Source: Epilithonimonas caeni DSM 17710
GTDB taxonomy: Bacteria > Bacteroidota > Bacteroidia > Flavobacteriales > Weeksellaceae
Assembly (NCBI RefSeq): GCF_000426465.1
Contig: NZ_AUFK01000018.1
Coordinates: 186,001-250,000, forward strand
Direction: 5' to 3'
DNA: 64,000 nucleotides
Under the pieces are notes generated by a model. It was given only the letters and a program-made list of their open reading frames with translations, was not told the origin of the DNA and did not search any database. Made by a program: the position numbers and the translations under genes. Each line of letters opens with the position of its first letter. Within the stretch, counting starts at the first letter, position 1. Shown here piece by piece: positions 2,894 to 62,161 of this stretch.

Positions 2894-5848
2894 ATGAAAC
2901 AATTTTATCTATTCAGTTTTCTCATTTTTTTCTGGGCAAAAAGCCAGTACACCAACTTCTACGAAAGATGGTACAGCAGCCAGGAAGATAAACTTCCTCA
3001 AAACACCATAAAATCTATCGTGAAGGACAAGTACGGTTTTCTGTGGATATCCACAGACAACGGCCTGGTCCGTTTTGATGGCACTTCGTTCAAAAAATAT
3101 GATATTACTGTACCCGGCGTTGAAAACAGAACCATCCTTATAGACGGCAGTGCGTCCGATGACTGGCTGTTCACATTTTACAACTCAGGAGAAATACCTA
3201 CCCTCATAACAAAAAGAAATGCCTTCACCGTAAACGACAGCTGTGGAAAATCCTTCAGAGATCTATCCGTATATGGATTTGAAAACCTGCAAAGGCTTTT
3301 GGAACACAATATGGAACATATCAAAAAAGACAGGTTTCATTTTTTCATAACCAAAAAAAAGTTCTATCTCCTGGATAATTATCATTTGTTCTATCAAGAT
3401 AATGGTGTTAAAAAATATATTACAAAATGTGATGACTATTTGCATTATCGTTTTTTTCTGCTGAACAACAAATTGTTCTATATCAGGAATCCAAATAAGA
3501 TTGAGGAAATCAACCGTGATGGTTCCAGAACTCTTTTCACCTTACCTCTGAAAAATAATCCTGAAAATGCCTCCTATTTTATCAATAATGCCAATCAGCA
3601 GGTCTTTATCCGATCAGGGAAAAAAATCTACCTTATTGAGTATTCTAATAAAAAAATCGTAGCAACCCCGATCTATGAGAATGAAGCTATCCGTAAACTT
3701 TCCCTATCAAGTATCTATTATGAGCAAAAGGACAGAACTCTTTTCCTGGGAACGAGTACCAAGGGTTTGCTGGTGACCAGAAAGCATTTTATAAATATGG
3801 TCAGCAATTCTTCAAATAATATTTTCAACGCCATCGAAAAATCCGGAAACAATGTCATTACCAGCCAGGGTGAATTGTTGGATGAAAAGGGCATCAAGAC
3901 TGTATTACCTTTTCCAAAAGGGCCCGACAACTATGGAATCATAACGACAGCAGATCCGCAGGCCTATGTTTTTAAAAGAAATGAGATTCTTTACCATTAT
4001 TTCAATAACAAGCTGACACCACTTTTAAACTTTGGAATGAACCATTCGTCCATATGTACAATTTCCAAGGGAAAAGATCAAAAAATATGGTTATCTGCCT
4101 GGCAGAAAAAAAGCTGCAAACTCGGGTACATTATCTTAAAAGAGGGAAAAATCCAAGAGCTGAAATTCTACAGCGTTCCCATGCCTATAAGAGGTATTTT
4201 CGATCTTGGCAATAACAAACTGCTTCTGGCATCAGAAAGCGGCCTTTATTATTTTAACAGTAATACAAGGGTGATACATTGCCTGGTCCCCAAAATCAAC
4301 TTCAGAAGCATCAATGGTAATCCGGATAATGTGGTCTGGATAGAAAGCTATGGCAAGGGTCTGTACATGTACAAAGCCGGGAAGGTATATGGTCCGCCCA
4401 AAATGAATCAACACACGTTTTCTTATGTGCATTGTGTAATAGATGATAATAAAGGCTATTACTGGCTCTCATCCAACAATGGATTATTCCAAATAAGAAA
4501 GCAGGACCTGATAGATTATTATTACAGGAAAGTAAGTGATATCTATATACAGAAATATACGCTTGCAGATGGTCTCCTCACAATGGAGTTCAACGGAGGA
4601 AGTAACTCCAACGGGCTTAATTTAGCTAACAACATCGTTTTTCCTTCCATGGATGGCCTTGCATTTATTAATATAGATGAAGCCCGCCCGGTATTACCGA
4701 GTGAAAATTTTTACATAGACAAAATAAATGTTAATGGTCAGGAAATATCTGCAAAAGAGGAAATCAGCCTGGAAAGAAATTTTGACAACCTAAGAATCTT
4801 TCTGGACTATACCAACTATGGAAATATAAAAAATGACCGCATCGAGTATAAAATAGATAACAAAGACTGGCAGCGCCTGGATGAGACCAGAAGTCTATAT
4901 ATCAATTCCCTATATACCGGAAGGCACAAGGTAATATTCAGGAAACTTAAAAATTTCTCATCGGATCACATTTACAAGACCATAGTGCTGACTGTAAGAC
5001 CGGCTTACTGGGAAACCACGATCTTCAGGCTTTTTATCATTCTGAGCTTTCTGACCATTGTCTATTGGACCTATTCTGCAAGATTAAAAAAAATCACCCG
5101 AGAGAAGATGTTACTGAACAAAAAAATAGAGGAAAGCACCATAGAACTACGGAAAACCGTTACGTCATTATCGGCCACAAGAGAAGAACTCTATGCGCAG
5201 CTTATCAGGAAAAAAAAATTTATAACCACTATAACCCACGATATCACAACGCCCTTAAAATATATTAAGATGAGTTCTCATTTTCTGCTTGACACGTCAA
5301 TTCCCTGGAACGAAAAGGAAAAAATCGTGCACTCCATTCAGGATTCCATTTCTAAGATCACTTCTTTCATAGAATCTACGTTGCATTACAATAAAGTTTT
5401 TATAAACAACAGTTTCAGTAAAAATGAAAAAGTTTACCTCAAGAAATTTATCAATAAAAGATCGTCGTTCTTCAATGCAATTGCTGAGTTTAAACAGCTG
5501 GAAATAATTAATAAAATCGATAACAAAATAGTTCTTTATACAAATCCGGATGTACTAAGCATCATTGTTCACAATATAATAGACAATGCCGTTAAATATA
5601 CAGATTCCGGATATCTGGAAATCTCTGCTTTATCCTCCGCTGGCGGGCTTATTATTTCATTCCAGGATACCGGGATTGGAATGACAGCGGATGAAATTGC
5701 AATCATTAATGATCCCGGCAGAGAATCCGACCCAAAAGTTGGCATGAGGATAATCAAAGATCTATTACCGCTTATCAATTGCAAAATGCAGATAAACAGC
5801 AAAAAAAATGAAGGAACAAAAATCCTTCTGGAGTTTGACGCTAATTAA
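2894..5848 (+). CDS. Two-component sensor histidine kinase with N-terminal beta-propeller
   Basis: A signal peptide (residues 1-17) leads a periplasmic two-component-regulator propeller; the motif GFLWISTDNGLVRFDG near residue 50 is typical and similar blades recur (YYWLSSNNGLFQIR). A Y_Y_Y-like domain follows at about 620-700, then one membrane helix (IFRLFIILSFLTIVYW, about 705-722) and a coiled coil. The H-box is FITTITHDITTP with the phospho-accepting His near 782. The N-box is NIIDNAVKYTDSG near 893 and the G-box is DTGIGMT near 925. There is no fused receiver or AraC domain, unlike the large hybrid sensors of Bacteroides. The partner is probably the NarL-type regulator whose gene converges with it and overlaps its last 8 bp. 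The inducing ligand cannot be told from the sequence. Confidence 0.93.
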   Translation: MKQFYLFSFLIFFWAKSQYTNFYERWYSSQEDKLPQNTIKSIVKDKYGFLWISTDNGLVRFDGTSFKKYDITVPGVENRTILIDGSASDDWLFTFYNSGEIPTLITKRNAFTVNDSCGKSFRDLSVYGFENLQRLLEHNMEHIKKDRFHFFITKKKFYLLDNYHLFYQDNGVKKYITKCDDYLHYRFFLLNNKLFYIRNPNKIEEINRDGSRTLFTLPLKNNPENASYFINNANQQVFIRSGKKIYLIEYSNKKIVATPIYENEAIRKLSLSSIYYEQKDRTLFLGTSTKGLLVTRKHFINMVSNSSNNIFNAIEKSGNNVITSQGELLDEKGIKTVLPFPKGPDNYGIITTADPQAYVFKRNEILYHYFNNKLTPLLNFGMNHSSICTISKGKDQKIWLSAWQKKSCKLGYIILKEGKIQELKFYSVPMPIRGIFDLGNNKLLLASESGLYYFNSNTRVIHCLVPKINFRSINGNPDNVVWIESYGKGLYMYKAGKVYGPPKMNQHTFSYVHCVIDDNKGYYWLSSNNGLFQIRKQDLIDYYYRKVSDIYIQKYTLADGLLTMEFNGGSNSNGLNLANNIVFPSMDGLAFINIDEARPVLPSENFYIDKINVNGQEISAKEEISLERNFDNLRIFLDYTNYGNIKNDRIEYKIDNKDWQRLDETRSLYINSLYTGRHKVIFRKLKNFSSDHIYKTIVLTVRPAYWETTIFRLFIILSFLTIVYWTYSARLKKITREKMLLNKKIEESTIELRKTVTSLSATREELYAQLIRKKKFITTITHDITTPLKYIKMSSHFLLDTSIPWNEKEKIVHSIQDSISKITSFIESTLHYNKVFINNSFSKNEKVYLKKFINKRSSFFNAIAEFKQLEIINKIDNKIVLYTNPDVLSIIVHNIIDNAVKYTDSGYLEISALSSAGGLIISFQDTGIGMTADEIAIINDPGRESDPKVGMRIIKDLLPLINCKMQINSKKNEGTKILLEFDAN

Positions 5849-6476
5849 TTTTCAAAATCTCTACCAACGCAGGTATATTATTGATGCCCAGCTTCTCGAA
5901 TATCCTCATTTTATAGGTACTTACAGTCGATTTCTGAATATTGAGCGACGATGCTATAAAAGTATTTGAATAACCGTAAGCAAGCAGTCTCGCGATTTCC
6001 AATTCACGGACCGATAGCGTATCAAGATCATTTACGCTTTTGTTTCTCACCATATTTTCAAGTAGCCGGTCTTTCAGCTCTTCACTTATATACTTGCCAT
6101 TCTCAAAAAATCTGCCAAGCGCATACACTAGCTGATGTTCTTCGGTAAGCTTGCTCAGAAAACCATTGGCTCCAGCCTTTATATATTTGAAAGCGTAGAT
6201 GTTTTCATCAAGGGCCGAGAAAATCAGTATTTTAATTTCATCATTATTAATTGAGCGCAAATATTCGACAAAAGTCAGGCTGTTGCCTTCAGGAAAGTTT
6301 ATATCTAAAATAATATAGTTGACAGAATTATTTTTGACAATTGAAATAGCTTCATTAATGGAAGCAACGTCAAAGACCGTAGGATCGCCAAAATACTTTT
6401 TTATAAGCAGATATACACCTTTTCTGACAATGCTGTGATCATCAACCAATAGAACGGTTTGTTTACTGATATTCAT
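5841..6476 (-). CDS. NarL/FixJ-type response regulator
   Basis: The receiver domain (about 5-125) has acidic residues in VDDHS and a phospho-acceptor Asp58 in ILDINFPEG; a conserved Lys lies in AFKYIKAG. A LuxR-type HTH occupies about 145-205 (LSVRELEIARLLAYGYSN, then IQKSTVSTYKMRI). The 211-aa length is normal for the family. The gene runs tail-to-tail into the sensor kinase with an 8-bp overlap of coding ends, so the two are transcribed convergently although they probably form one signalling pair. The ATG at 6474-6476 is the natural start. Confidence 0.93.
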   Translation of the reverse strand: MNISKQTVLLVDDHSIVRKGVYLLIKKYFGDPTVFDVASINEAISIVKNNSVNYIILDINFPEGNSLTFVEYLRSINNDEIKILIFSALDENIYAFKYIKAGANGFLSKLTEEHQLVYALGRFFENGKYISEELKDRLLENMVRNKSVNDLDTLSVRELEIARLLAYGYSNTFIASSLNIQKSTVSTYKMRIFEKLGINNIPALVEILKIN

Positions 6477-6856
6477 TTTTTCATATTTATGTTATCTCAA
6501 AAATAAGTAAAAACTTCCATCTCCTGACAAAATATTTCCATTAATGGTCTTTGATCGTTCTGTTATCTGGAAACAAGTTGAATTGATCTATCTGCTCATT
6601 ATTTTATGAAAAATAATAGCGTCTTTATTACCAATATCACTGTAAAATAAACAGATAAATTTTCGGTATAACAGAGAAGTAACATAGTTATAAGTATTGA
6701 CCATAAACGCCGTAATCGTTTTCATTTTTCACAACCAAATGAGCCAGGAGTTGATAATCAAATTGCCGATCCTTTTAGTGGGATAGCTGCTATTTCCTTT
6801 CCATCGCAAATTATTCCAGTCCTAGACCTTATAATTTGGGAATCCAATTTTCATTA
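6477..6856. other. Gene-free spacer
   Basis: AT-rich DNA between the response regulator start and the AraC remnant. I see no coding frame with protein-like content, no RNA gene and no clear hairpin. The missing HTH domain of the AraC remnant would be expected here but cannot be read in any minus frame. Confidence 0.5.
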
Positions 6857-7299
6857 TTATTTAATTACTTTCAAAATCTTGGCAATAATAGATTCCAGTT
6901 CACTTTTACAACTGTCGACCTTGCGGAAGCCATATTTACCCACTTTACTGAATATTGGCAGAGAATTGATAAAATCTTTCTGAGACAAAAAATCGTTAAA
7001 AAAATCTTAATTGAAATTAATCATAATCCGTTCCGTATTTTCGGAAGTAATCTAAGGACATGCACCTGACCAGGGCTAAGAAAAAAATTGTCCCATCCTC
7101 TATTTCCCATTCCTGGAAATCCACATAATGAATTCCTGTACCTTTGCTTACATAAAGAATCTAAAAAAAAATGTTTGTGAGGTGTTTTTAGAATATACAA
7201 ATCTTCTTTCACAAGCTCACTGAGATTGTGTACCGCAAAATTATTCTTCTGATTAACCTTTTTTCGGATATCACAGGACTTAATTAATGGTATATTCAT
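6857..7299 (-). pseudogene. Decayed AraC-family regulator (N-terminal sensor half)
   Basis: Pieces of one AraC protein lie in order in different minus frames. Frame 1 gives MNIPLIKSCDIRK to TPHKHFFLDSL, the cupin HxH region. After a poly-T tract a second frame gives GTGIHYVDFQEWEIEDG. The first frame then returns with FFLSPGQVHVLRLL. A third frame gives INFN-stop-DFFNDFLSQKD and SLPIFSKVGKYGF and ends at 6857. At least three frameshifts and one nonsense codon (probably GAA to TAA) are needed. The DNA-binding AraC domain is absent. A non-functional relic is the only reasonable reading. Confidence 0.8.
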
Positions 7300-7322
7300 A
7301 GAAGTTGAAACAATAAAATAAA

Positions 7323-7351
7323 AACCCTTCCATTAAGATAATGAAAGGGTT
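7323..7351 (-). terminator. Rho-independent terminator of the efflux operon
   Basis: A 12-bp stem with one mismatch (AACCCTTCCATT paired with AATGAAAGGGTT) and a 5-nt loop. On the minus strand it is followed by a T-rich tract. It lies 17 bp beyond the last gene of the module. Confidence 0.8.
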
Positions 7352-7367
7352 ACAATTTAAAAAAAAT

Positions 7368-7574
7368 TCACACAGAACAATTTCCGCCGTCTTTTTTAAC
7401 GCCGAGCTTATTGAGAATCATATACATTAAACACCAATCAGTCAAGGCATGAATCCACATATTGACTCCCACAAATCCTGTAAGCCAAAACCAATTCTGA
7501 TCGACATAAATTCCTAATAATAAACTCACTAAAATGAGGGTTCCTGCTACTGCGTGTACTATTCTTGTTTGCAT
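7368..7574 (-). CDS. DUF2892 (YgaP-like) small membrane protein
   Basis: A 68-residue protein with two membrane helices (AVAGTLILVSLLLGIYV and a second around FVGVNMWIHALTDW), the layout of DUF2892 proteins that form the membrane part of YgaP-type rhodaneses. It ends GGNCSV. It is the last gene of the minus-strand module containing a free-standing rhodanese (14469-14780), so the two may act together in sulfane-sulfur handling (inference). Length and motif order match the family. Confidence 0.85.
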   Translation of the reverse strand: MQTRIVHAVAGTLILVSLLLGIYVDQNWFWLTGFVGVNMWIHALTDWCLMYMILNKLGVKKDGGNCSV

Positions 7575-7627
7575 AATATTCTGTTGTTTTTAATTAATCA
7601 ATTAATACTTTTTTTTTTTCCGAAAGC

Positions 7628-7798
7628 CTATACAAGCAGACAACCCATTATTGCTCCATAAAGGATACTGCTGAAAGGACGGGAAGTGATTGCACAGTTT
7701 CCTGTACTGCAGATGAAGTAATAATACAGATACCCTGCAACCCCTCCTGTAAAAGCTCCGATAAGCGATACGAATCTCTTTTTACTTAAAATTTTCAT
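7628..7798 (-). CDS. DUF6132-like small membrane protein, 56 aa
   Basis: A short frame from the ATG at 7796-7798 to TAG at 7628-7630. It begins MKILSKKRFVSLIGAF and has two hydrophobic segments (LIGAFTGGVAGYLYYYF and SSILYGAIMGCLLV) joined by a CSTGNCAITS turn carrying two cysteines. Glycine-rich helices around a CxxxxC turn are typical of the small DUF6132 proteins found beside rhodanese genes in Bacteroidota. It overlaps the end of the upstream gene by 17 bp, indicating translation as part of the same operon. Family assignment rests on memory of the pattern. Confidence 0.75.
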   Translation of the reverse strand: MKILSKKRFVSLIGAFTGGVAGYLYYYFICSTGNCAITSRPFSSILYGAIMGCLLV

Positions 7799-8087
7799 TT
7801 TCTAAATTTATCGTTGCCATATGAATCTGGGAAACGGTTTTCTGCTTTTGATTAAATTCGTTGACGCTTTTATAAATATCGTCAATGCAATTGCAATCGG
7901 AAAAAACCGTGAAAAGCAGGGAATTTACTGCAATATCATCTTTTCCGAACCAATTGCTCATTTCGTTTTTATTGTTTTTAAAACCTTTTACGGATTGATA
8001 GGAAAAAGATTTCACTCCCGAATGCTTCAGGATATCAATGACATCTGCTTCTAATTCCTCTATTGTGGTGATTAATAATAGTTTCAT
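7782..8087 (-). CDS. Small PII-like/ferredoxin-fold protein, 101 aa
   Basis: Begins MKLLLITTIEELEADVIDIL and has the alternating beta/alpha pattern of small PII-like signalling proteins. A DCNCID motif in the C-terminal half might bind metal or thiols. There is no signal peptide. It sits 21 bp behind the RND pump gene and overlaps the next small gene by 17 bp, so it belongs to the operon. A similar small cytoplasmic protein often follows heavy-metal-type RND pumps. Function unknown; the fold call is inference. Confidence 0.7.
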   Translation of the reverse strand: MKLLLITTIEELEADVIDILKHSGVKSFSYQSVKGFKNNKNEMSNWFGKDDIAVNSLLFTVFSDCNCIDDIYKSVNEFNQKQKTVSQIHMATINLENENFK

Positions 8088-8108
8088 AAGATGAATGTTT
8101 AATTGGTT

Positions 8109-11100
8109 TTATGCTTCAAAAAACTTGTCGTCAGATTCTGACTTTTTCTCCCATTTTTTCTTTTCGGTAGCATAGTAAACCAACGGAACGACAATCAAAG
8201 TCAAAAGCGTGGAAACAATGGCTCCGAAAACGAGTGATATTGCCAATCCCTGGAAAATCGGGTCAAAAAGAATGATTACGGCTCCAATTACTACCGCACC
8301 TGTTGTTAATAAAATCGGGGTTGTTCTCACAGCTCCGGCTTCAATAATGGCCTGCTTCATGGGAATTCCCTCTTTCAGACGAATTTCTATAAAGTCGATT
8401 AAAAGAACGGAATTTCTTACCATTACACCCGCTAGGGCAATCATTCCGATAAAAGATGTAGCCGTGAAGAATGCCCCTAGAATCCAGTGTCCCAGTACAA
8501 TTCCTATAAGGGAAAGCGGAATCGCAACCATCATTACAATAGGTGTTTTGAAATTCTGGAACCAGCCGACAATCAGCATATAAATAATAATGATCACGAC
8601 CGCAAAAGCAGTTCCCAAATCACGGAAAACTTCCAATGTAATTTGCCATTCTCCGTCCCATTTCACCGTATAATTGCCCTCGTCTTCAGGTTGGTTCATA
8701 TACAATTCATTCATTGAATATCCATTCGGAAGCTGGATTTTTTTTAGTTTTTCTTCCATTCCGAGAATCGCATAGGCCGGGCTTTCCAGTTTTCCTGCCA
8801 TATCGGCAAGAACATATACCACACGCTTCTGGTCTTTTCTATAAATGGTTTTGTCCAGCTCCTTTTTTTCTGCTTTCACAAGGTCACTCACCGGAACCAA
8901 GCCCGTCTGTCCTTTGATTTTTAATCCTGTAATACCCTGGATACTGGTTTTATCTGCATTTTTTAGCTTCATTACAATATCTACAGGGTCGTTGGATTTT
9001 TCATCATAAAGATTTCCAATAGGATATTCACCTATCAGGTAAGTCATATTTCCAACGATTTGCTGAGGAACAATACCGTTAAGCATTGCTTTTTCTTTAT
9101 CAGGGACAAGCTTGAATTCTTTTTGAGGCGCTTCTACCATCCAGTCAACATCTACGACATCATCGGTTTTCTTCAGAATATCTTCTACTTGTTTTGCCAC
9201 TTTTATCTGGCCTTCGTAGTCAGGTCCGTAGATTTCTGCTACAATTGTTGAAAGAACCGGTGGCCCCGGTGGAACTTCCACCACTTTTACATTAGCTCCG
9301 TATTTGGCAGCTATTTTCTGAATTTCAGGACGGATGTTTTTAGCAACATCGTGGCTCTGTGCATCTCTGTCTTCCTTATGCAGAAGGTTCACCTGAATAT
9401 CCGCCGTATTACTGCTTCCACGCATATCATAATGACGAACCAATCCGTTGAATGTAATCGGAGCAGAAGACCCGACATAATTCTGATAATTCAACACTTC
9501 CGGAACAGTCTTCAGGTATTGCGCAATATCCTGTGTTACCGCGGATGTTCTTTCCAGTGTTGTTCCTTCCGGCATGTCAATCACCACCTGAATTTCATTT
9601 TTGTTATCAAAGGGAAGCATTTTTACAGCCACCCATTTGGTAAAAAATGCAGCTACGGAAATCAGCAGCAAAACAACTGTAATCCCCATCATCATCCATC
9701 TTTTTGATTTTGAATTTAGGAGTGGCTGCTCTATCTTTTTATAAATTCTATAAATCCTGCCGGTTTCCAGACCTTGCTCTTCTGTGTATTCCTGTTTGTC
9801 TTTTACTTTCAGCAAATGATAGCCGAGATATGGTGTAACCGTTAATGCCACAAAAAGAGAAAGCATCATTGCGATAGAAGCTCCAATTGGCATCGGCGAC
9901 ATGTAAGGCCCCATCATTCCTGATACGAAAGCCATTGGTAAAATCGCAGCAATAACCGTAAACGTTGCTAAAATGGTAGGATTTCCTACTTCATTAATGG
10001 CATAAATTGCAGCCTGTTTAAACGGCAGTTTTTTCATATGAAAATGCCTGTGCATGTTTTCAGCAATGATGATGCTGTCATCTACTACAATTCCGACCAC
10101 AAAAACTAATGCAAATAATGTAATCCTGTTCAGGGTATATCCTAAAATATAATAGCTGAATAAAGTTAAAGCAAACGTCAACGGAACCGAAAAGAATACT
10201 ACCAAACCTCCTCGCCAACCCATTGCCAGCATTACCAGAACAGTTACTGCCAAAATCGCGACACCAAGGTGCATCAACAACTCAGAAACTTTGTGTGAGG
10301 CGGTTTCTCCATAATTTCTGGTGACTTCTACATGCACATCATTCGGAATGAGATTTTTCTTTAATCCTTCTACTTTGTTTAGAATCTGTTCAGAAATTTT
10401 CATTGCATCAGCGCCTTTTACTTTCGAAACTGAAACGGTAACCGCCGGATATTCCGATTTAAACTTTTTACCGTTTTCTACAGCATTTCCATATCCGAAG
10501 CTTACATAATTCGCAGGATCGGACGCTCCGTCTTTTATGGTTGCCACCTGCTTCAGATACACCGGCATATTCTGCGATGTTCCGACAACCAGATTTTCCA
10601 CATCTTCAGCTGAGTTGAGAAACTGACCTGTCGTTAAAAGATATTCCGAATCGCCTGAATCAAACCTCCCCGATTGGGAGCTTCCGTTATTCGCCTGAAT
10701 CATCTGCATTACGGAAAGGGCGTCTACACTCAGTTCAGCCATTTTATCTTTATCTAGAATCACCTGCAGCTGGCGGTTTCTTCCACCAATCGTTTTGGTA
10801 AGAGACACATCTTTTATTTTTTTGATTTCAGAAGATAATTCCTCTCCTATCTGGCGAAGCTGAAAATCATTATAATGAGGATTATCACTCCACAAAGTCA
10901 GTCCGAGCATCGGAACATCATCAATGGAACGTGTCTTCACCACCGGTTCCATTACATTTTTTGGAAAAATATTTTTATTCTTCATCAGCTCATCGTAAAG
11001 CTTCACATATGAACGTTCCGTATCTTCCCCTACATAAAACTGAACGATAATCATGGCCTGTCCGTTCATTGCCATCGAATGAATATGCTCTACTCCCTTG

Positions 11101-54734: not shown

Positions 54735-54803
54735 AAATTTTAATTAGCCAATATTCAAATATCCGAAATAATAATTAGCTGCAATAAAATATTAATTACG
54801 TTT

Positions 54804-55286
54804 TTATCTTTTCACTCGTTTCATTGGGAAGGTCTGTTTGCGTTTCTGTCCGTTTTTTGTCCCTGAAATTTCGGCTATCAATGAATCTGAAGTGATTTTT
54901 GTGTAAGCGATGATCTGCGGAAAGTCGTGTTGTGGATTTTCAAAGACCAATTGATTTTCAGAAATAGTTTTGGCGGCAAAACGAACAGGCAGACCTTCAT
55001 TTTGATTTTTAACAATTGGAATGTAAAACAACTTTTTATTTTCCTGCACGAGTCGGATATTTTCAAAAACGATCGTGTCTTTGCCTCTGACACTATAACT
55101 TTTCCCCGAAAATTCATTATCGCCAGTTTTGGTCCAGGCTTCATAGATGCTGCCTCTCTGGGTTTTATTTTCCCAGGTACCGATCAGCCATCCAGCTTTT
55201 TGAATGTCTTTTGTCTGCTTTATTGTCCAGCCATAAAGAATAGCCAAACTAACAACCGTAATAAAAAATTTTGTTCCTGTTTTCAT
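54804..55286 (-). CDS. DUF6265-family secreted protein
   Basis: 160 residues. Signal-anchor FFITVVSLAILYGWTI. The domain pattern: AGWLIGTWENKTQRGSIYEA, GDNEFSGKSYSVRGKDTIVF, FENPQHDFPQIIAYTKI. The W-L-x-G-x-W opening and N-P-Q-H-D-F-P motif mark DUF6265, a lipocalin-like fold. Function unknown. Confidence 0.85.
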   Translation of the reverse strand: MKTGTKFFITVVSLAILYGWTIKQTKDIQKAGWLIGTWENKTQRGSIYEAWTKTGDNEFSGKSYSVRGKDTIVFENIRLVQENKKLFYIPIVKNQNEGLPVRFAAKTISENQLVFENPQHDFPQIIAYTKITSDSLIAEISGTKNGQKRKQTFPMKRVKR

Positions 55287-55411
55287 AATCTTAGCTCATT
55301 GAATAATTGTCATTTTATTCGATTTCAAACACTGGATAACTTCCTTGCTGAAAGTTTAGATGACAAAGTTGTAATGTTTTTAAAAACTAAAATTGTAAAA
55401 ATGGGACAATT

Positions 55412-56227
55412 CTAATCCGTTCCGTAAAAAAGTGAAGACATTTTGAGGTGAGTGCCATAAAATTCTTTGGGCGTAGATCCGGTAAATTCTTTAAACTCTT
55501 TGATAAAGTGCGCTTGGTCATAATATTCGTTTTCGTAAGCAAGGTTTGAAAGGTTTGAGAACTGATCGTTCAACAACATTTTGAGTGCAGCCTGCAATCG
55601 AATCGTTCTGGATAGTTGTTTAGGGCTTAGACCAATGGCTGAAGAAAATTTGCGTAACAATTGTCTTCGATCGACTTGGGTAAGCTTGGACAATTCGTCA
55701 ACCGGAAGTTGTCCATTGGCTGTTATAATCGTTTCAACCGTTGATTTTACAATGCGGTCAACAGTTTCAAGGTCAGTCAACCGATCTAGTAAAAATATTT
55801 CAATGAGCTTTATTCTCTCCGTAGTAGAATTGGCATTTAAGATCTGTTGCTCAATTTCCTGTCCATCTTTTCCAAAAAGCTTTTCCAATGAAACGGCGGT
55901 ATTTTCCATCTCTTTTATGGAATTAGTGGTAAAAGGCAAAAATCCTTCCGGCTGAAAACGGACGGAGAAAATTCCGGTTTCGCCGGTCGGCTCTATTTCC
56001 AGTGGCCGTGTCAGTTGTCCGATAACAAAACATCTGGGCTGGATAATGCTATTCCCATTATCAAAGTATTGTTTGTATAGATCGCCATAATGAAAGATCA
56101 TCTCAATACATCCGTCAGGAACGATGGTTTGTTTTTCAGGCGTTTCTTCTTTCGGGCTTTCCAATGTCCAATAACATTTGATAAATGCTGTCAAGTCCCG
56201 ATCCGGTTCAAATGTCTGGTAATTCAT
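55412..56227 (-). CDS. AraC-family regulator with DUF6597-type N-terminus
   Basis: 271 residues: LTAFIKCYWTLESPKEETPE, IVPDGCIEMIFHYGDLYKQY and FSVRFQPEGFLPFTTNSIKE are the DUF6597 region; the AraC domain has LSKLTQVDRRQLLRKFSSAI and NLAYENEYYDQAHFIKEFKE. It is 126 bp upstream of the DUF6265 gene on the same strand and may control it. Confidence 0.92.
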   Translation of the reverse strand: MNYQTFEPDRDLTAFIKCYWTLESPKEETPEKQTIVPDGCIEMIFHYGDLYKQYFDNGNSIIQPRCFVIGQLTRPLEIEPTGETGIFSVRFQPEGFLPFTTNSIKEMENTAVSLEKLFGKDGQEIEQQILNANSTTERIKLIEIFLLDRLTDLETVDRIVKSTVETIITANGQLPVDELSKLTQVDRRQLLRKFSSAIGLSPKQLSRTIRLQAALKMLLNDQFSNLSNLAYENEYYDQAHFIKEFKEFTGSTPKEFYGTHLKMSSLFYGTD

Positions 56228-56686
56228 CGGCTTCTTTACAAAAGTTATTCATTTAAAAACTTCAAAGTAAATCAAATATAATCAATCTTAGTATAAGAGA
56301 TTAATGAATCATCTATCATAAATCTGCATAATCTAATACACGTAAACCTGAAACCTCCGCAAAATGTGCACAGGTCAGATTAAAATCGGCTCGAAAATTA
56401 AGCAACTCAACACTGATCCTGCATAAAAATTGAGCCGGATGTTTAAATTGGTATTCAAAAAATAAGTAATCTTATTCAAGGCTTTATTGATAACATGTTA
56501 AACATTCGACAGCACTGCAAAAATAACATAATTGTTCTTTATGAATTGCACTTATTTCACACACTTTTCACCGGTACATGCTCTCATATGGTATGTTTAA
56601 GTATATCATTATGATCTTTATTTATATATTTAGTCCACGGAGCTAAATTTTATTCATTGTTTACTAGGAGATTTTTTTAGAAATAA
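56228..56686. other. Gene-free spacer
   Basis: AT-rich DNA between the AraC start and the integrase tail. I see no coding frame, RNA gene or strong hairpin. Confidence 0.5.
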
Positions 56687-56721: not shown

Positions 56722-57909
56722 TTAAATTAGATATATCCTTCCCAATTTTTTATCCTGTATTTTTGCATAATGCTGGGTCATTCGTATGTTGGTGTGACCA
56801 AGCATTTTACTCACTGTTTCCAAAGGGACACCATTGTTAAGCGTGATTGTCGTTGCAAATGTATGTCTTGCGGTATGAAAAGTAATGTCAAAATCAACAT
56901 CGCATATGGCTCCGATCTCTTTTAGGTACTCATTCATTTTCTGGTTACTCATAACAGGTAAAGCAGTATTCTCGTTTATACATCTTGGATGGTCTTCATA
57001 CCTCTTTAAGATCTCCTTTGCTTCAGGTAACAAGGGAATACTGGCTTCAATATTAGTTTTTGTTCTTTTAATTTTTATCCATAGTTCTCCATCGATACCA
57101 ATACTTACCTTACCTTTTGTCAGATTCTTAACGTCGACATAGGCTAGACCAGTATAGCAGCAGAAGACAAATATATCCCTGACGATTCTTAAGCGTTCTG
57201 AAACAAAGCCCTTAGATTGAATATTTTTTAATTGTAAATCGGTCAGGAAACGTACATCGACATTTTCTATTTTAGACTTGTATCTTATAAAAGGGCTTTT
57301 ACTGATCCATTCATTATTTAGACAAATATTAATGATTTTCTGAAAATTCTTGATGTATTTTACGGCAGTATTGTTTGAACAATCCCGGACTGTACGAAGA
57401 TAAAACTCATAATCAGCAATAAACGCAGGGTTAATGTTACAAACATCTATATCTGAAATATTAAATTTCCATTTCAAAAATGATCGGGTATGTCTTAAAG
57501 AAGTCTCATATCTCTCCCACGTCCCTTTGGAAAATTCCTTACCTATCAGTTCTTTCATCCTTGAGTTATGGTCTTCGAAAACATTCATGAGAGTGATCTT
57601 TCTTTCATCGATCTTCAGATATTTATTTCGTAGGCTCTCACAGGTGATCTCTTTACCGTTGTTAAAAAGTGAAGTATAACATTCGAACACTTTCGAACGT
57701 ATCCCTTCCAGCAATGCGTTCAAGTTTTTTGCATTGGGAGTATTGCCGGTTATTTTTCCAGACTTTATATTCCATTGTGATGTTGGTATCTTTTGCCCTG
57801 TCGATATCTCGGTACGTTTACCAAAAATGGTTATCCGCAAATAAATGGTAGAGATCTTGGGCTTGTTTTTAGTCTTCTTTGCATAGAATAGCAAATTGTA
57901 AGTGTTCAT
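56722..57909 (-). CDS. Tyrosine recombinase/integrase of a Bacteroidota element
   Basis: 395 residues. Arm-binding domain (FYAKKTKNKPKISTIYLRIT), SAM-like core-binding domain (about 105-205), catalytic domain with TGLAYVDVKNL (first Arg replaced by Ala, as is common in the Bacteroidota integrases), FHTARHTFATT (HxxR) and LGHTNIRMTQHYAKI (nucleophile Tyr). After DKKLG the frame ends RIYLI; in the next frame the expected tail DISNLRNVLMENKYGS runs to 56687. One base seems missing near 56740. The catalytic residues precede the shift, so activity may survive. Confidence 0.93.
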   Translation of the reverse strand: MNTYNLLFYAKKTKNKPKISTIYLRITIFGKRTEISTGQKIPTSQWNIKSGKITGNTPNAKNLNALLEGIRSKVFECYTSLFNNGKEITCESLRNKYLKIDERKITLMNVFEDHNSRMKELIGKEFSKGTWERYETSLRHTRSFLKWKFNISDIDVCNINPAFIADYEFYLRTVRDCSNNTAVKYIKNFQKIINICLNNEWISKSPFIRYKSKIENVDVRFLTDLQLKNIQSKGFVSERLRIVRDIFVFCCYTGLAYVDVKNLTKGKVSIGIDGELWIKIKRTKTNIEASIPLLPEAKEILKRYEDHPRCINENTALPVMSNQKMNEYLKEIGAICDVDFDITFHTARHTFATTITLNNGVPLETVSKMLGHTNIRMTQHYAKIQDKKLGRIYLI

Positions 57910-58093
57910 ACCAGTTGATGTTTTAAGATTAATAAATGTATTTGCGAATCTTAAAACCTACAAGATGTTTAACCGATGAACAGGCTGTTTGCCTGCAATT
58001 CGGTGAGTCCAAACTAATGTCTTATAGTACTCACCGAATGACTCCCTTTCAATTTGTATTTATTTGATACGTTTCAAAGGTCCAAAATAACAA

Positions 58094-58127
58094 AAAAGCC
58101 TTTAAATACTAAGATTTAAAGGCTTTT
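58094..58127. terminator. Bidirectional terminator
   Basis: 14-bp stem AAAAGCCTTTAAAT and its complement around ACTAAG. A- and T-runs on both sides allow termination either way. Read on the minus strand, it lies just after the tRNA-Ser 3' fragment, exactly where a tRNA terminator is expected. Confidence 0.8.
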
Positions 58128-58148
58128 GATTTTGTTTGTTTCTCCAAC

Positions 58149-58167
58149 TGGCGGAGAGTGAGGGATT
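58149..58167 (-). other. tRNA-Ser 3' fragment, candidate att site
   Basis: On the minus strand AATCCCTCACTCTCCGCCA is the T-stem 3' half, acceptor arm and CCA end of a tRNA-Ser. No tRNA body follows at higher coordinates, so it is a displaced 3' end as left by tyrosine integrases. The integrase gene lies 240 bp to its left. Which side is the inserted DNA cannot be settled here; the second copy is not in the window. Confidence 0.6.
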
Positions 58168-58475
58168 TTGTACCCATTTCTCATCGCTTTATTGATAAGA
58201 TTTTCGCTGTAGTATCTCTGTGAATGGCCTCAAATAGGACATTTGCAAAAAAGTGGTAAAATCCTAATTTAAATTTTACGTAGTAAAACTAGGAATTTTC
58301 GTTTGAATTTGCAAGTAAAGATTACTAAATTTTTAACAAGTTTTTTGAATTCATATTTGAAATTTAACAACATTTTTTCTTTTAAGAAATTCCTCAGATG
58401 AAATATTCCTAAAAGAAAACGAAGAAAAAACCGAAAAAAAAGAAAAAAAGAAAGCCTTTTGAAAATGAGCGTGGC

Positions 58476-58568
58476 ATTCTGTCAAGGTTTTTTGGAAAAA
58501 GTTTTTGCGTAGATAGTTATACGCAAAAACTTTTTCTGAAAATCCGGAGGGCTTGACCTTGACAGAAT
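58476..58568. repeat. Nested palindrome beside the serine recombinase
   Basis: Outer arms of 13 bp (58476-58488 ATTCTGTCAAGGT; 58556-58568 complement) enclose an inner 17-bp perfect stem at 58496-58512 and 58521-58537 (GAAAAAGTTTTTGCGTA and complement; loop of 8). It could extrude as a cruciform. It may be a res/oriT-like site of the mobile DNA. The flanking 58168-58475 and 58569-58634 contain no gene. Confidence 0.75.
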
Positions 58569-58634
58569 TTAGGTGGTGGACTGGGAAGCGAATTACCTTT
58601 GGTTTCTGTTTTTTATTTTAATTTGTAGTTGTAA

Positions 58635-59231
58635 TTAGTTCATTCTTTCTTTTACAAAACTAGAAACGGTTAATCTGTGCACACCTAAAATCCTACCTAT
58701 TGCAGAATATGAAACTTTCTTTTCAATCAATTCTTGAATCTTCTTTTCCTGACCAGTTAATTTTGTCTTAGAAGATTTACTACCCACAGGACGGCCTAAA
58801 ATTACACCTTCTGCTCTTTTTCGAGCTAATGCTTCTTTAGTTCTTTGGGATATAAGGTTTCTTTCAATTTCGGCTGATAAACCAAATGCAAATGCCAACA
58901 CTTTAGAATTAATATCACTTCCTAAGCGATAATTGTCTTTAATGGTCCAAACTTGAATATCACGATTCATACATTCATTAAGTACGCCCATAATCATCAG
59001 AAGATTTCTTCCAAGCCTGGATAATTCTGAGCAAATTAAAACATCTCCTTTTTTCATTTTTTTTAAAAGTTTTCCTAATTTTCTGTCATCAACATTCTTT
59101 GCTCCTGAAATAGTTTCTTCGATCCATTTGTTCACAACAATTTGTTGCTTGTCACAAAAATGATTGATTTCAAATCTTTGATTTTCTACTGTTTGTTTGT
59201 CTGTGCTTACTCTGATGTATCCGTAAATCAT
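58635..59231 (-). CDS. Serine recombinase (resolvase/invertase family)
   Basis: 198 residues. N-terminal catalytic domain: GYIRVSTDKQTVENQ with nucleophile Ser9, then ICSELSRLGRNLLMIMGVLN and AFGLSAEIERNLISQRTKEA. The arm ALARKRAEGVILGRPVGSKS leads to a small HTH (YSAIGRILGVHRLTVSSFVK). This is the short Gin/Hin/Tn3-resolvase type, not the large serine integrase. The gene starts 14 bp from a 25-bp palindrome (59246-59270) and 43 bp from a beheaded collagen-like gene, pointing to site-specific inversion or insertion there. Confidence 0.94.
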   Translation of the reverse strand: MIYGYIRVSTDKQTVENQRFEINHFCDKQQIVVNKWIEETISGAKNVDDRKLGKLLKKMKKGDVLICSELSRLGRNLLMIMGVLNECMNRDIQVWTIKDNYRLGSDINSKVLAFAFGLSAEIERNLISQRTKEALARKRAEGVILGRPVGSKSSKTKLTGQEKKIQELIEKKVSYSAIGRILGVHRLTVSSFVKERMN

Positions 59232-59245
59232 TTCTTTTGTTTAAA

Positions 59246-59270
59246 ATTTTATACAATAATGGTATAAAAT
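59246..59270. promoter_or_regulatory. 25-bp palindrome, candidate recombination site
   Basis: ATTTTATAC, seven bases AATAATG, then GTATAAAAT. Nine-bp inverted arms around a short centre are the size of a crossover site for Hin/Gin-type recombinases. It lies between the recombinase start and the broken reading frame. It may also overlap the recombinase promoter and serve autoregulation. Confidence 0.55.
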
Positions 59271-59274
59271 ATAA

Positions 59275-60222
59275 GATGCGGTAGGAGCGACTGGCGCAAC
59301 AGGTCCTCAGGGAATCCAAGGCATTCAGGGTGTTACGGGTAATACTGGCCCTGCAGGCGCACAAGGTATAACAGGTGCGGTAGGAGCGACTGGCGCAACA
59401 GGTCCTCAGGGAATCCAAGGCATTCAGGGTGTTACGGGTAATACTGGCCCTGCAGGCGCAACTGGCGCAACAGGTGCGCAAGGTGTTACTGGAGCGACTG
59501 GTCCTCAAGGGCCGGTTGGAGCAATAGGTCCAGCAGGTGTTCAGGGAGCTACAGGAGCGATTGGCCCTACAGGACCAACAGGTAGTACTGGTGCCGGTAT
59601 TTCTAATGGAACTACAGGTGCTCAGATTATTCTGACCAGTGCCGTAGCACCATATTCTCCCGGAGTTCCTCAAACGGTAACTGGCGATGTTACCATAAAT
59701 TCATCAGCTGTAACCACTATTGCTGCAAATGCAATTACTACAAGTAAAATCAATGACGGTGCGGTAACTATAGCTAAAATTTCTACGACATCAGGAACAG
59801 CAGGTTCTTCCACGTATCTTAGAGGCGATGGAACTTGGTCAACGCCGAGTAGTGGCGGAAGTGGCGCTAGTATTGTTTCTACTCAATCAGTTTCTTCGAC
59901 GGTCACACTTACTAATACTCCTTCATCTGTATTTACATATACTTTAACATCATCAGGGATATTTTTAGTAAATGTTAGTATGGCTGGTGTTGTAAACAGT
60001 GCGACTTTATTTGGTGCAATCAAACAAAATTCAGTTGTTGTCGCATATGGAAATGGATCGGTTAATAATCTTATTCCGTCACCAACTACAAGATGCTCAA
60101 TATCCATGGTAATACAAGGTGTAGTGGGAGATATTATAACTGTTGAGGGAGTAAGTAATAATACTAACAATGTGCTTACAACAGATGGTTCTAGCCGAAT
60201 GGTCGTTACAAAGCTGAACTAG
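59275..60222 (+). pseudogene. Collagen-like (G-X-Y) surface/tail-fibre-like protein lacking its 5' end
   Basis: An open frame of 315 codons with no start: a TAA at 59272-59274 is followed at once by GAT GCG GTA GGA. Residues about 3-112 are Gly-X-Y repeats ([40 protein letters not shown]). Then comes [20 protein letters not shown] and [13 protein letters not shown], linker motifs usual in such Bacteroidota proteins and phage fibres, and a beta-rich C-terminal head ([20 protein letters not shown] to RMVVTKLN) like a C1q/BclA domain. The frame enters in mid-repeat, so the 5' half with its signal was removed or lies elsewhere. It may be a silent cassette for a recombinase-driven switch. Confidence 0.8.
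59277..59460 (+). repeat. Two exact 85-bp direct repeats in collagen-like region
   Basis: 59277-59361 and 59376-59460 are identical by eye, with a period of 99 bp (33 codons, 11 Gly-X-Y triplets). The first copy starts two bases after the frame opens. Confidence 0.85.
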
Positions 60223-60600: not shown

Positions 60601-61002
60601 ATGGAATTAGAATACAAAGAACATCTGAGCCCGATGCTGAAAGGCGATATCAAGAATTATCTGATCGATATCGATGGAACGATTACAGACGATGTTCCTA
60701 ACGAAGAACCGGAAAGAATGGTAACTTGCGAGCCATTTCCGGATGCTTTGGCAACTATTAACAAATGGTATGACGAGGGCCATCAGATTTGTTTCTTCAC
60801 TTCCAGAACAGAGGATCTAAGAGAAATTACAGAAACTTGGCTGAAAAAACATGGTTTCAAATATCATAGTGTTTTGCTTGGAAAACCAAGAGGTGGAAAT
60901 TATCACTGGATAGACAATCACCTTGTGAGAGCAACAAGATACAAAGGAAAATTCACGGATATGGTTGAAAAACAAGTGACCATAGAGGTTTTCCGTGACT
61001 AA
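60601..61002 (+). CDS. HAD-type phosphatase (often annotated phosphoheptose isomerase)
   Basis: 133 residues from MELEYKEHLSPMLKGD (ATG 60601; the frame extends upstream but over the promoter). Motif I is YLIDIDGTITDDVPNEEP (DxD), motif II CFFTSRTEDLREI, and GNYHWIDNHLVRATRYKG supplies the C-terminal acidic motif. Small single-domain HAD enzyme conserved in Flavobacteria. Substrate unknown; position before serA in core-like DNA. Confidence 0.85.
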   Translation: MELEYKEHLSPMLKGDIKNYLIDIDGTITDDVPNEEPERMVTCEPFPDALATINKWYDEGHQICFFTSRTEDLREITETWLKKHGFKYHSVLLGKPRGGNYHWIDNHLVRATRYKGKFTDMVEKQVTIEVFRD

Positions 61003-61204
61003 AAATATTTTAAATCAAAAATTCCCGAGTCTCATAATTTCGGGAATTTTTGATTTGAAGACAAAACCCATAGCCCCGATTGCAGCGGTATCCTTTTTCT
61101 TTTTTTTCTAAAAAAGGAAAAGATATAGCGGAAAGCGGGATTAAGCTCCTAAACCAATTAATTATTGAACAGATTCTGTTCTTCAAAAAAATATACAATT
61201 TATA

Positions 61205-62161
61205 ATGAAAGTACTTGCTAATGACGGATTGACGCAATCCGGAATAGATGCGCTGAAAGAAAACGGATTCGAGGTAATCACATACAAAGTGGCTCAGGAA
61301 AATCTAATCACTTATATCAATGAAAATCAGATCACGGTTTTACTTGTAAGAAGTGCGACGAAAGTGACGAAGGAAATGGTGGACAACTGTCCAAGCCTGG
61401 AAATCATCGGTAGAGGTGGTGTGGGAATGGACAACATCGAGGTGGCTTATGCAAGGGAAAAAGGAAAACATGTGATCAATACGCCTGCTGCCTCTTCGGA
61501 ATCTGTTGCGGAATTGGTATTTGCACATCTTTTTTCCGGAAGCAGATTTTTACAGGATTCTAACAGACAGATGCCTGTGAAAGGTAATACTGAATTTGCT
61601 AAATTGAAAAAAGCTTACGAAAAAGGTGTTGAGCTGAGAGGTAAGACCATCGGAATAGTAGGGATCGGAAGAATAGGACAGGAGGTTGCAAGAATCGCAC
61701 TTGGATTGGGAATGAAAGTGATCGCTTCTGACACGAGAATCGGGAAAGCAAGTGTACGTGTGGATTTTTACAATCAGCAATACATCAATGTGGAAATAGA
61801 AACGGAGCCGTTGGAGCAATTGATCCAGCATTCTGATTTCATCACGCTTCATGTCCCGGCTCAGGATGGACCGATCATTGGAAAAGCGGAATTGGAAAAA
61901 ATGAAGACCGGAGCAGCTATTGTCAACTGTGCAAGAGGAGGTGTGATTGACGAAGAAGCTTTGGTAGAAGCTTTGGATTCTGGAAAATTAGCATTTGCAG
62001 GTCTTGACGTTTTCGAGAATGAACCAACACCTTCTGAAAAAATATTGACGCATCCAAAAATCTCTTTGACGCCTCATACAGGTGCGGCTACGGAAGAAGC
62101 TCAGGACAGAATAGGGACTGAGTTGGCCAATCAAATTGCCAGCATCCTTTTGGTTAAATAA
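61205..62161 (+). CDS. serA: D-3-phosphoglycerate dehydrogenase
   Basis: 318 residues. D-isomer 2-hydroxyacid dehydrogenase fold: SATKVTKEMVDNCPSLEIIG, GRGGVGMDNIEVAYAREKGK, NAD motif GIVGIGRIGQEVARIALGLG, catalytic VNCARGGVIDEEALVEAL and His in LTPHTGAATEEAQDR. It lacks the C-terminal ACT domain, as usual for the short SerA of this phylum. First step of serine synthesis. Ends at a terminator 21 bp downstream. Confidence 0.88.
   Translation: MKVLANDGLTQSGIDALKENGFEVITYKVAQENLITYINENQITVLLVRSATKVTKEMVDNCPSLEIIGRGGVGMDNIEVAYAREKGKHVINTPAASSESVAELVFAHLFSGSRFLQDSNRQMPVKGNTEFAKLKKAYEKGVELRGKTIGIVGIGRIGQEVARIALGLGMKVIASDTRIGKASVRVDFYNQQYINVEIETEPLEQLIQHSDFITLHVPAQDGPIIGKAELEKMKTGAAIVNCARGGVIDEEALVEALDSGKLAFAGLDVFENEPTPSEKILTHPKISLTPHTGAATEEAQDRIGTELANQIASILLVK

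Follow-up and report, generated by a model that had tools for sequence, protein, structure and literature searches.

A serine recombinase beside a headless collagen-like gene in Epilithonimonas caeni: a probable displaced invertase of a type IIG restriction-modification switch

In the 64,000-nucleotide stretch of the Epilithonimonas caeni genome that was analysed here (the window), a gene for a short serine recombinase stands beside a palindrome and a collagen-like reading frame that lacks its beginning. A preliminary description of this DNA proposed that the recombinase inverts DNA at the palindrome, and that the beheaded frame is one half of an alternating or donor cassette. The locus therefore raises the question of whether the recombinase serves the gene beside it, or whether its proper partner lies elsewhere. 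The analysis presented here indicates, with high confidence, that the recombinase is the displaced invertase of a type IIG restriction-modification (RM) specificity switch. With less assurance, though still as the probable course of events, we propose that a 72-kb inversion parted this switch and beheaded the collagen-like gene. What appeared to be a surface-gene switch would thus become a displaced part of an RM-specificity switch. The features concerned are collected in Table 1.

Table 1. Features at and around the recombinase locus, in window coordinates
Feature	Position	Strand	Basis or remark
Right-hand part of type IIG RM switch module (recombinase and flanks)	58089..59273	minus	92% DNA identity over 1195 alignment columns to Chryseobacterium taeanense (L060)
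Serine recombinase, DNA-invertase type, 198 aa	58635..59231	minus	Resolvase PF00239, PHROG, and PDB matches
25-bp inverted repeat ATTTTATAC-N7-GTATAAAAT, recombinase 5' region	59246..59270		Exact 9-bp arms, 7-bp spacer
Candidate rearrangement junction: RM-module DNA left, collagen repeat right	59273..59277		End of L060 match; first 99-bp unit
Collagen-like gene 3' half (tail), 315 codons, without start	59275..60222	plus	Open frame; PF01391
99-bp collagen-repeat unit, 1.9 identical copies	59277..59460	plus	Also in the head on contig C5, 96% over 178 bp
HAD-type protein and serA-like dehydrogenase (names by our own reading)	60601..62161	plus	In sister genomes, downstream neighbours of the complete collagen-like gene

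The recombinase, the palindrome and the headless gene

The recombinase gene, located at C7:244638-245231 on contig C7 of this assembly (G000), encodes a Resolvase-type catalytic domain (E 8e-35; 120.5 bits against a cut-off of 23.3), and its product also matches a PHROG DNA invertase (E 1e-48) and the DNA invertase of PDB entry 4m6f (E 2e-15). This entry and 3uj3, which was likewise matched, represent the serine DNA invertases of the Hin/Gin type. These matches uphold the original assignment of the protein to the Hin/Gin/resolvase type, as a serine recombinase of the invertase kind.

The palindrome is exactly as first described, including its distance of 14 bp from the recombinase start. By itself, it is unremarkable: counting nested repeats separately, there are 34 perfect inverted repeats in the window whose arms measure 9 bp and whose spacers range from 0 to 12 bp, and in four of them the spacer is 7 bp long. 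Identical letters lie upstream of the recombinase gene of C. taeanense (L060), whose recombinase is 100% identical in protein sequence to that of the window. The role of flip site that had been suggested for the palindrome did not survive: the proposed search for further copies returned none in the genome at up to one mismatch, and the repeated sites of the relatives lie elsewhere, the inverted element being an AGCG..TAGACA-like site inside an RM gene. The palindrome is probably a promoter or operator part of the recombinase gene and not a site of crossover.

The collagen-like frame does begin without a start codon, as had been noted. It matches the Collagen domain (PF01391) with an E of 7e-16, and the single open reading frame of at least 60 aa listed within it starts from an internal ATG at 59980. 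The start and signal half, which was expected to lie elsewhere, was located: in a DNA search of the 16 contigs of the assembly, the collagen repeat was found at one other place (C5 bases 4-181, minus), within a 5' half (C5:1-600, minus) that has a start codon and a signal-peptide-like beginning and is open at the contig end. Chance does not account for the headless frame, since the genome contains its matching head at another place. The same search revealed one head and one tail, and no alternative of either.

Complete collagen-like genes, adjoining HAD and serA genes, were found in all four sister loci inspected (G001, G008, G017, and G022), with no recombinase frame among their listed neighbours. 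The genes preceding the collagen-like gene in G001, G008, and G022 match those of C5 (a 161-aa protein, a glycosyltransferase-like, and a permease-like protein, by our own reading), while in G017 the contig stops after the 161-aa protein. Two collagen-like genes stand in tandem in G001 and G022, and the tail of the window is closer to the copy beside HAD. In a search for a conspecific strain whose collagen-like gene is intact, 7989 homologues of the tail were scored, and none was more than 66% identical. Judged from these sequences, head and tail would formerly have been one gene, and C5 would once have adjoined the window near 59275.

A programmed collagen-gene switch or donor cassette, flipped by the recombinase at the palindrome, would account for the proximity of recombinase, inverted repeat, and headless gene, and for the presence of a head elsewhere in the genome. 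Such a cassette is nevertheless very improbable, given a single head and a single tail, a palindrome lacking a second copy, sister loci that are complete, and, as set out in the next section, relatives in which an RM recognition domain often takes the place of the collagen-like frame.

Relatives of the recombinase and their neighbours

Among species genomes, at least 584 stretches matched the recombinase and at least 122 encode a relative; the loci analysed are the best 80 of these at least 122. At 42 of the 80, a recognition-domain match in reverse orientation lies upstream of the recombinase, and 25 of the 41 loci with at least 5.2 kb of upstream DNA also possess a type IIG RM gene facing that domain. 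A reading frame opening with (M)S[DV][YF][FV]RQ, or with a closely similar sequence, begins 76-102 nt upstream of the recombinase and reads away from it at 27 of the 80 loci. An AGCG..TAGACA-like site or variant lies inside the best inverted repeat at 16 of the 43 loci whose upstream DNA spans 3.5 kb or more (counted by hand), these repeats measuring 13 to 264 nt with their arms about 1.7-2.1 kb apart. Finally, a contig ends within 250 bp of the recombinase on the upstream side at 18 of the 80 loci and on the downstream side at one of the 80, as would be expected if the upstream DNA were heterogeneous.

The domains of the RM protein at the L060 locus are DUF7149, DUF7814, Eco57I, and TaqI_C, the last of which also makes up the headless second domain; the best PADLOC model for this system is type IIG. 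The anatomy of these loci is that of an RM recognition-domain switch, which the recombinase would run. The invertase would flip the segment between the inverted short coding motifs, about 1.7-2.1 kb apart, and with each flip, one RM enzyme would exchange its C-terminal DNA-recognition domain for the other. Serine invertases of this group occur in many Bacteroidota assemblies, in a position from which they could replace one recognition domain of a single-chain type IIG enzyme with another.

The link to RM genes is not universal across the recombinase family. The arrangement of RM gene and recognition domain is absent from 16 of the 41 loci with at least 5.2 kb upstream, an RM match accompanies only three of 57 relatives on viral contigs, and none was found near the 90%-identical recombinase of G017 in the 20 kb fetched, 14 kb of which lies upstream. 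In these three viral-contig relatives (L146, L155, and L165), the RM and recognition-domain matches lie directly downstream of the recombinase rather than upstream. Other relatives adjoin very long surface-protein-like frames (L130, L133, and L134) or SusC/SusD-like genes (L129 and L135), all named by our own reading, and with such neighbours the family may serve switches other than RM. In two genus relatives (G011:C3:1-135 and G003:C29:1-92), the recombinase at a contig end adjoins an apparent methylase fragment, cut near the NPPY motif (by eye), which is perhaps a switch with a different crossover position.

Since the relatives of the recombinase often sit at RM specificity switches, the collagen-like gene of the window looks like a bystander, most likely one that was beheaded by the 72-kb inversion.

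A divided RM module at the ends of a 72-kb segment

The genome possesses an RM module of its own, in two parts. Its type IIG gene (C7:313449-317186, plus) is 92% identical in amino acid sequence to that of L060, the nearest intact module (96.6% in DNA over 3417 bp), and faces a second recognition domain in reverse orientation (C7:317191-317604), which is truncated where the contig ends at C7:317605 and whose headlessness is visible in the relatives only. The recombinase lies on the same contig but 68 kb away from the type IIG gene, rather than adjacent to it, and the two parts of the module stand at opposite ends of a 72-kb segment (C7:245274-317605). As homology to L060 stops at window position 59273 and the first collagen unit begins at 59277, the module is cut just outside the 5' region of the recombinase. 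The local RM site occurs once in the assembly, at C7:316325, where the type IIG gene is unbroken; a second crossover site and about 0.6 kb of the module were not found in the assembly. A tyrosine integrase (window 56722-57909; Phage_integrase and Arm-DNA-bind_5) lies beside the module remnant, and this region is perhaps the edge of a genomic island.

The orientation of the 72 kb differs from that of its surroundings. GC skew and the proportion of coding on the plus strand are +0.045 and 80% within the segment, against -0.054 and 29% in C7:6001-245272 to its left and -0.060 and 24% over the initial 132 kb of contig C5 (374 kb). Since skew and coding strand are opposite to both neighbours, and the module and the collagen-like gene are both split, the segment appears to be inverted. 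The skew supports this flip, although it does not pin the edge: the change point passes a block permutation test (p 0.0005) but falls at 234 kb rather than 245 kb, the cumulative minimum is broad, from 216 kb, and one of the nine full 24-kb bins left of the junction is also positive. Gene order in the left part of C7 was not colinear with that of sister genomes, and was thus uninformative. A 1.44-kb segment encoding an AraC-like regulator and a 160-aa protein occurs twice (window 54797-56237 and G000:C7:307413-308856; 90.7% identical over 1444 bp), one copy on each side of the rearranged region; homologous recombination between the copies was considered and rejected, as they do not lie at the breakpoints.

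According to the explanation that we consider probable, the 72 kb would have been inverted with one end at the recombinase and the other within the 99-bp collagen repeats. This would sever the second recognition domain from the 5' region of the recombinase and deprive the collagen-like gene of its head. While the inverted state lasts, the RM enzyme would probably be locked in one specificity and the collagen-like gene would be inactive.

The preliminary description would have been contradicted by sister strains carrying an intact gene that is simply interrupted by the recombinase element. The intact genes were indeed found, in all four loci; the simple interruption was not, the gene being split by an inversion or by a misjoin instead. 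The recombinase does stand between two halves of one gene, as it would if it were a mobile, IS-like insertion in the collagen-like gene, but the head does not lie across it on C7 (the sole other match to the repeat is on C5), and parts of one module occupy both ends of the 72-kb segment, which leaves such an insertion scarcely credible.

A more serious alternative is that the chromosome order is intact and that the assembler wrongly linked the recombinase end to the collagen repeat. This can be entertained because the reciprocal junction, between collagen head and second recognition domain, would fall unseen in the gap between the end of C7 and the start of C5, and because of the missing 0.6 kb of the module. 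Furthermore, both sides of the junction are prone to assembly error, one consisting of identical 99-bp repeats and the other of a switch at which the contigs of relatives often end, and the two remaining sides coincide with ends of C5 and C7. Against this, the two joined sides share only a few bases, so that chimeric reads would be needed, the type IIG gene is unbroken at its own site, and a fully assembled analogue exists in a relative, itself a metagenome assembly. A misjoin is thus somewhat unlikely, and a real inversion is moderately favoured over it.

This analogue is found in a Prolixibacteraceae metagenome-assembled genome (L124), where a recombinase 74% identical to ours adjoins a split hydrolase gene on one contig. 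The halves of the hydrolase gene meet at residue 112 of a 305-aa relative, lie in opposite orientations 1.8 kb apart, and the tail reads away from the recombinase. The head half contains one stop and then runs into a reverse-transcriptase-like frame (named by our own reading). Both here and in the window, 40-45 nt separate the junction from the recombinase start, and each junction ends a 15-nt stretch in which 13 positions are alike (window 59262-59276), a likeness that may mark a site or be due to chance. The inversion that splits the hydrolase gene (5376-8151) contains the recombinase. A scripted search found no inverted repeat around the two halves, which led us to reject L124 as a switch flanked on both sides by such repeats. 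The case supports inversion but gives no site.

The recombinase itself may have made the 72-kb inversion at a secondary site. Against such action, the distance between the junction and the recombinase start is 42-45 nt, whereas the RM site lies at 76-102 nt, and no clear copy of an RM-type site was seen at the junction. A six-letter match to such a site at the collagen breakpoint, noticed by eye in the alignment, was taken as chance. It is tempting to generalize, if only tentatively, that Bacteroidota RM-switch invertases might at times cause recombination between the end of their switch and distant secondary sites, the resulting inversions of about 2 to 72 kb reversibly beheading host genes (the collagen-like gene and the L124 hydrolase) and freezing RM specificity. 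If the 72-kb inversion is true and was made by the enzyme, the locus would offer a direct test of how frequently such invertases rearrange the chromosome off target.

Comparison with known inversion systems

The literature on DNA inversion that was found deals with hsdS genes, Mpi, and phage examples (related papers include PMC11868660, PMC11892184, and PMC7154626). PMC5903667 describes inversions that affect hsdS genes, tail fibres, and surface loci of Bacteroidetes, and also mentions Mpi. A literature search that covered few subscription journals returned no report of inversion of type IIG recognition domains; in PMC5903667 and PMC7154626, type IIG appears in the reference lists only, in citations on phase variation of a Campylobacter jejuni type IIG enzyme.

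The closest parallel in function would be the invertible hsdS loci of type I RM systems, in which, according to PMC5903667 and PMC7394358, recombination swaps recognition domains and hence specificity. In contrast to these loci, the present system consists of a single-chain type IIG enzyme, with the domains listed above for L060, and a headless second C-terminal domain. Mpi of Bacteroides fragilis, compared here by description only, is likewise a serine recombinase in a related bacterial group; in PMC5903667, it is said to be a master recombinase that inverts at least thirteen regions, whereas in the genome studied here a single copy was found of the local RM site and of the palindrome. The Hin/Gin-type invertases share with the present group the Resolvase-type catalytic domain and, among the relatives, the adjoining inverted short sites that split a coding gene. 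They differ in that the C-terminal HTH_38 match of the window's recombinase falls under the Pfam cut-off (21.7 against 27 bits) and in that the partner of many of its relatives is an RM recognition domain.
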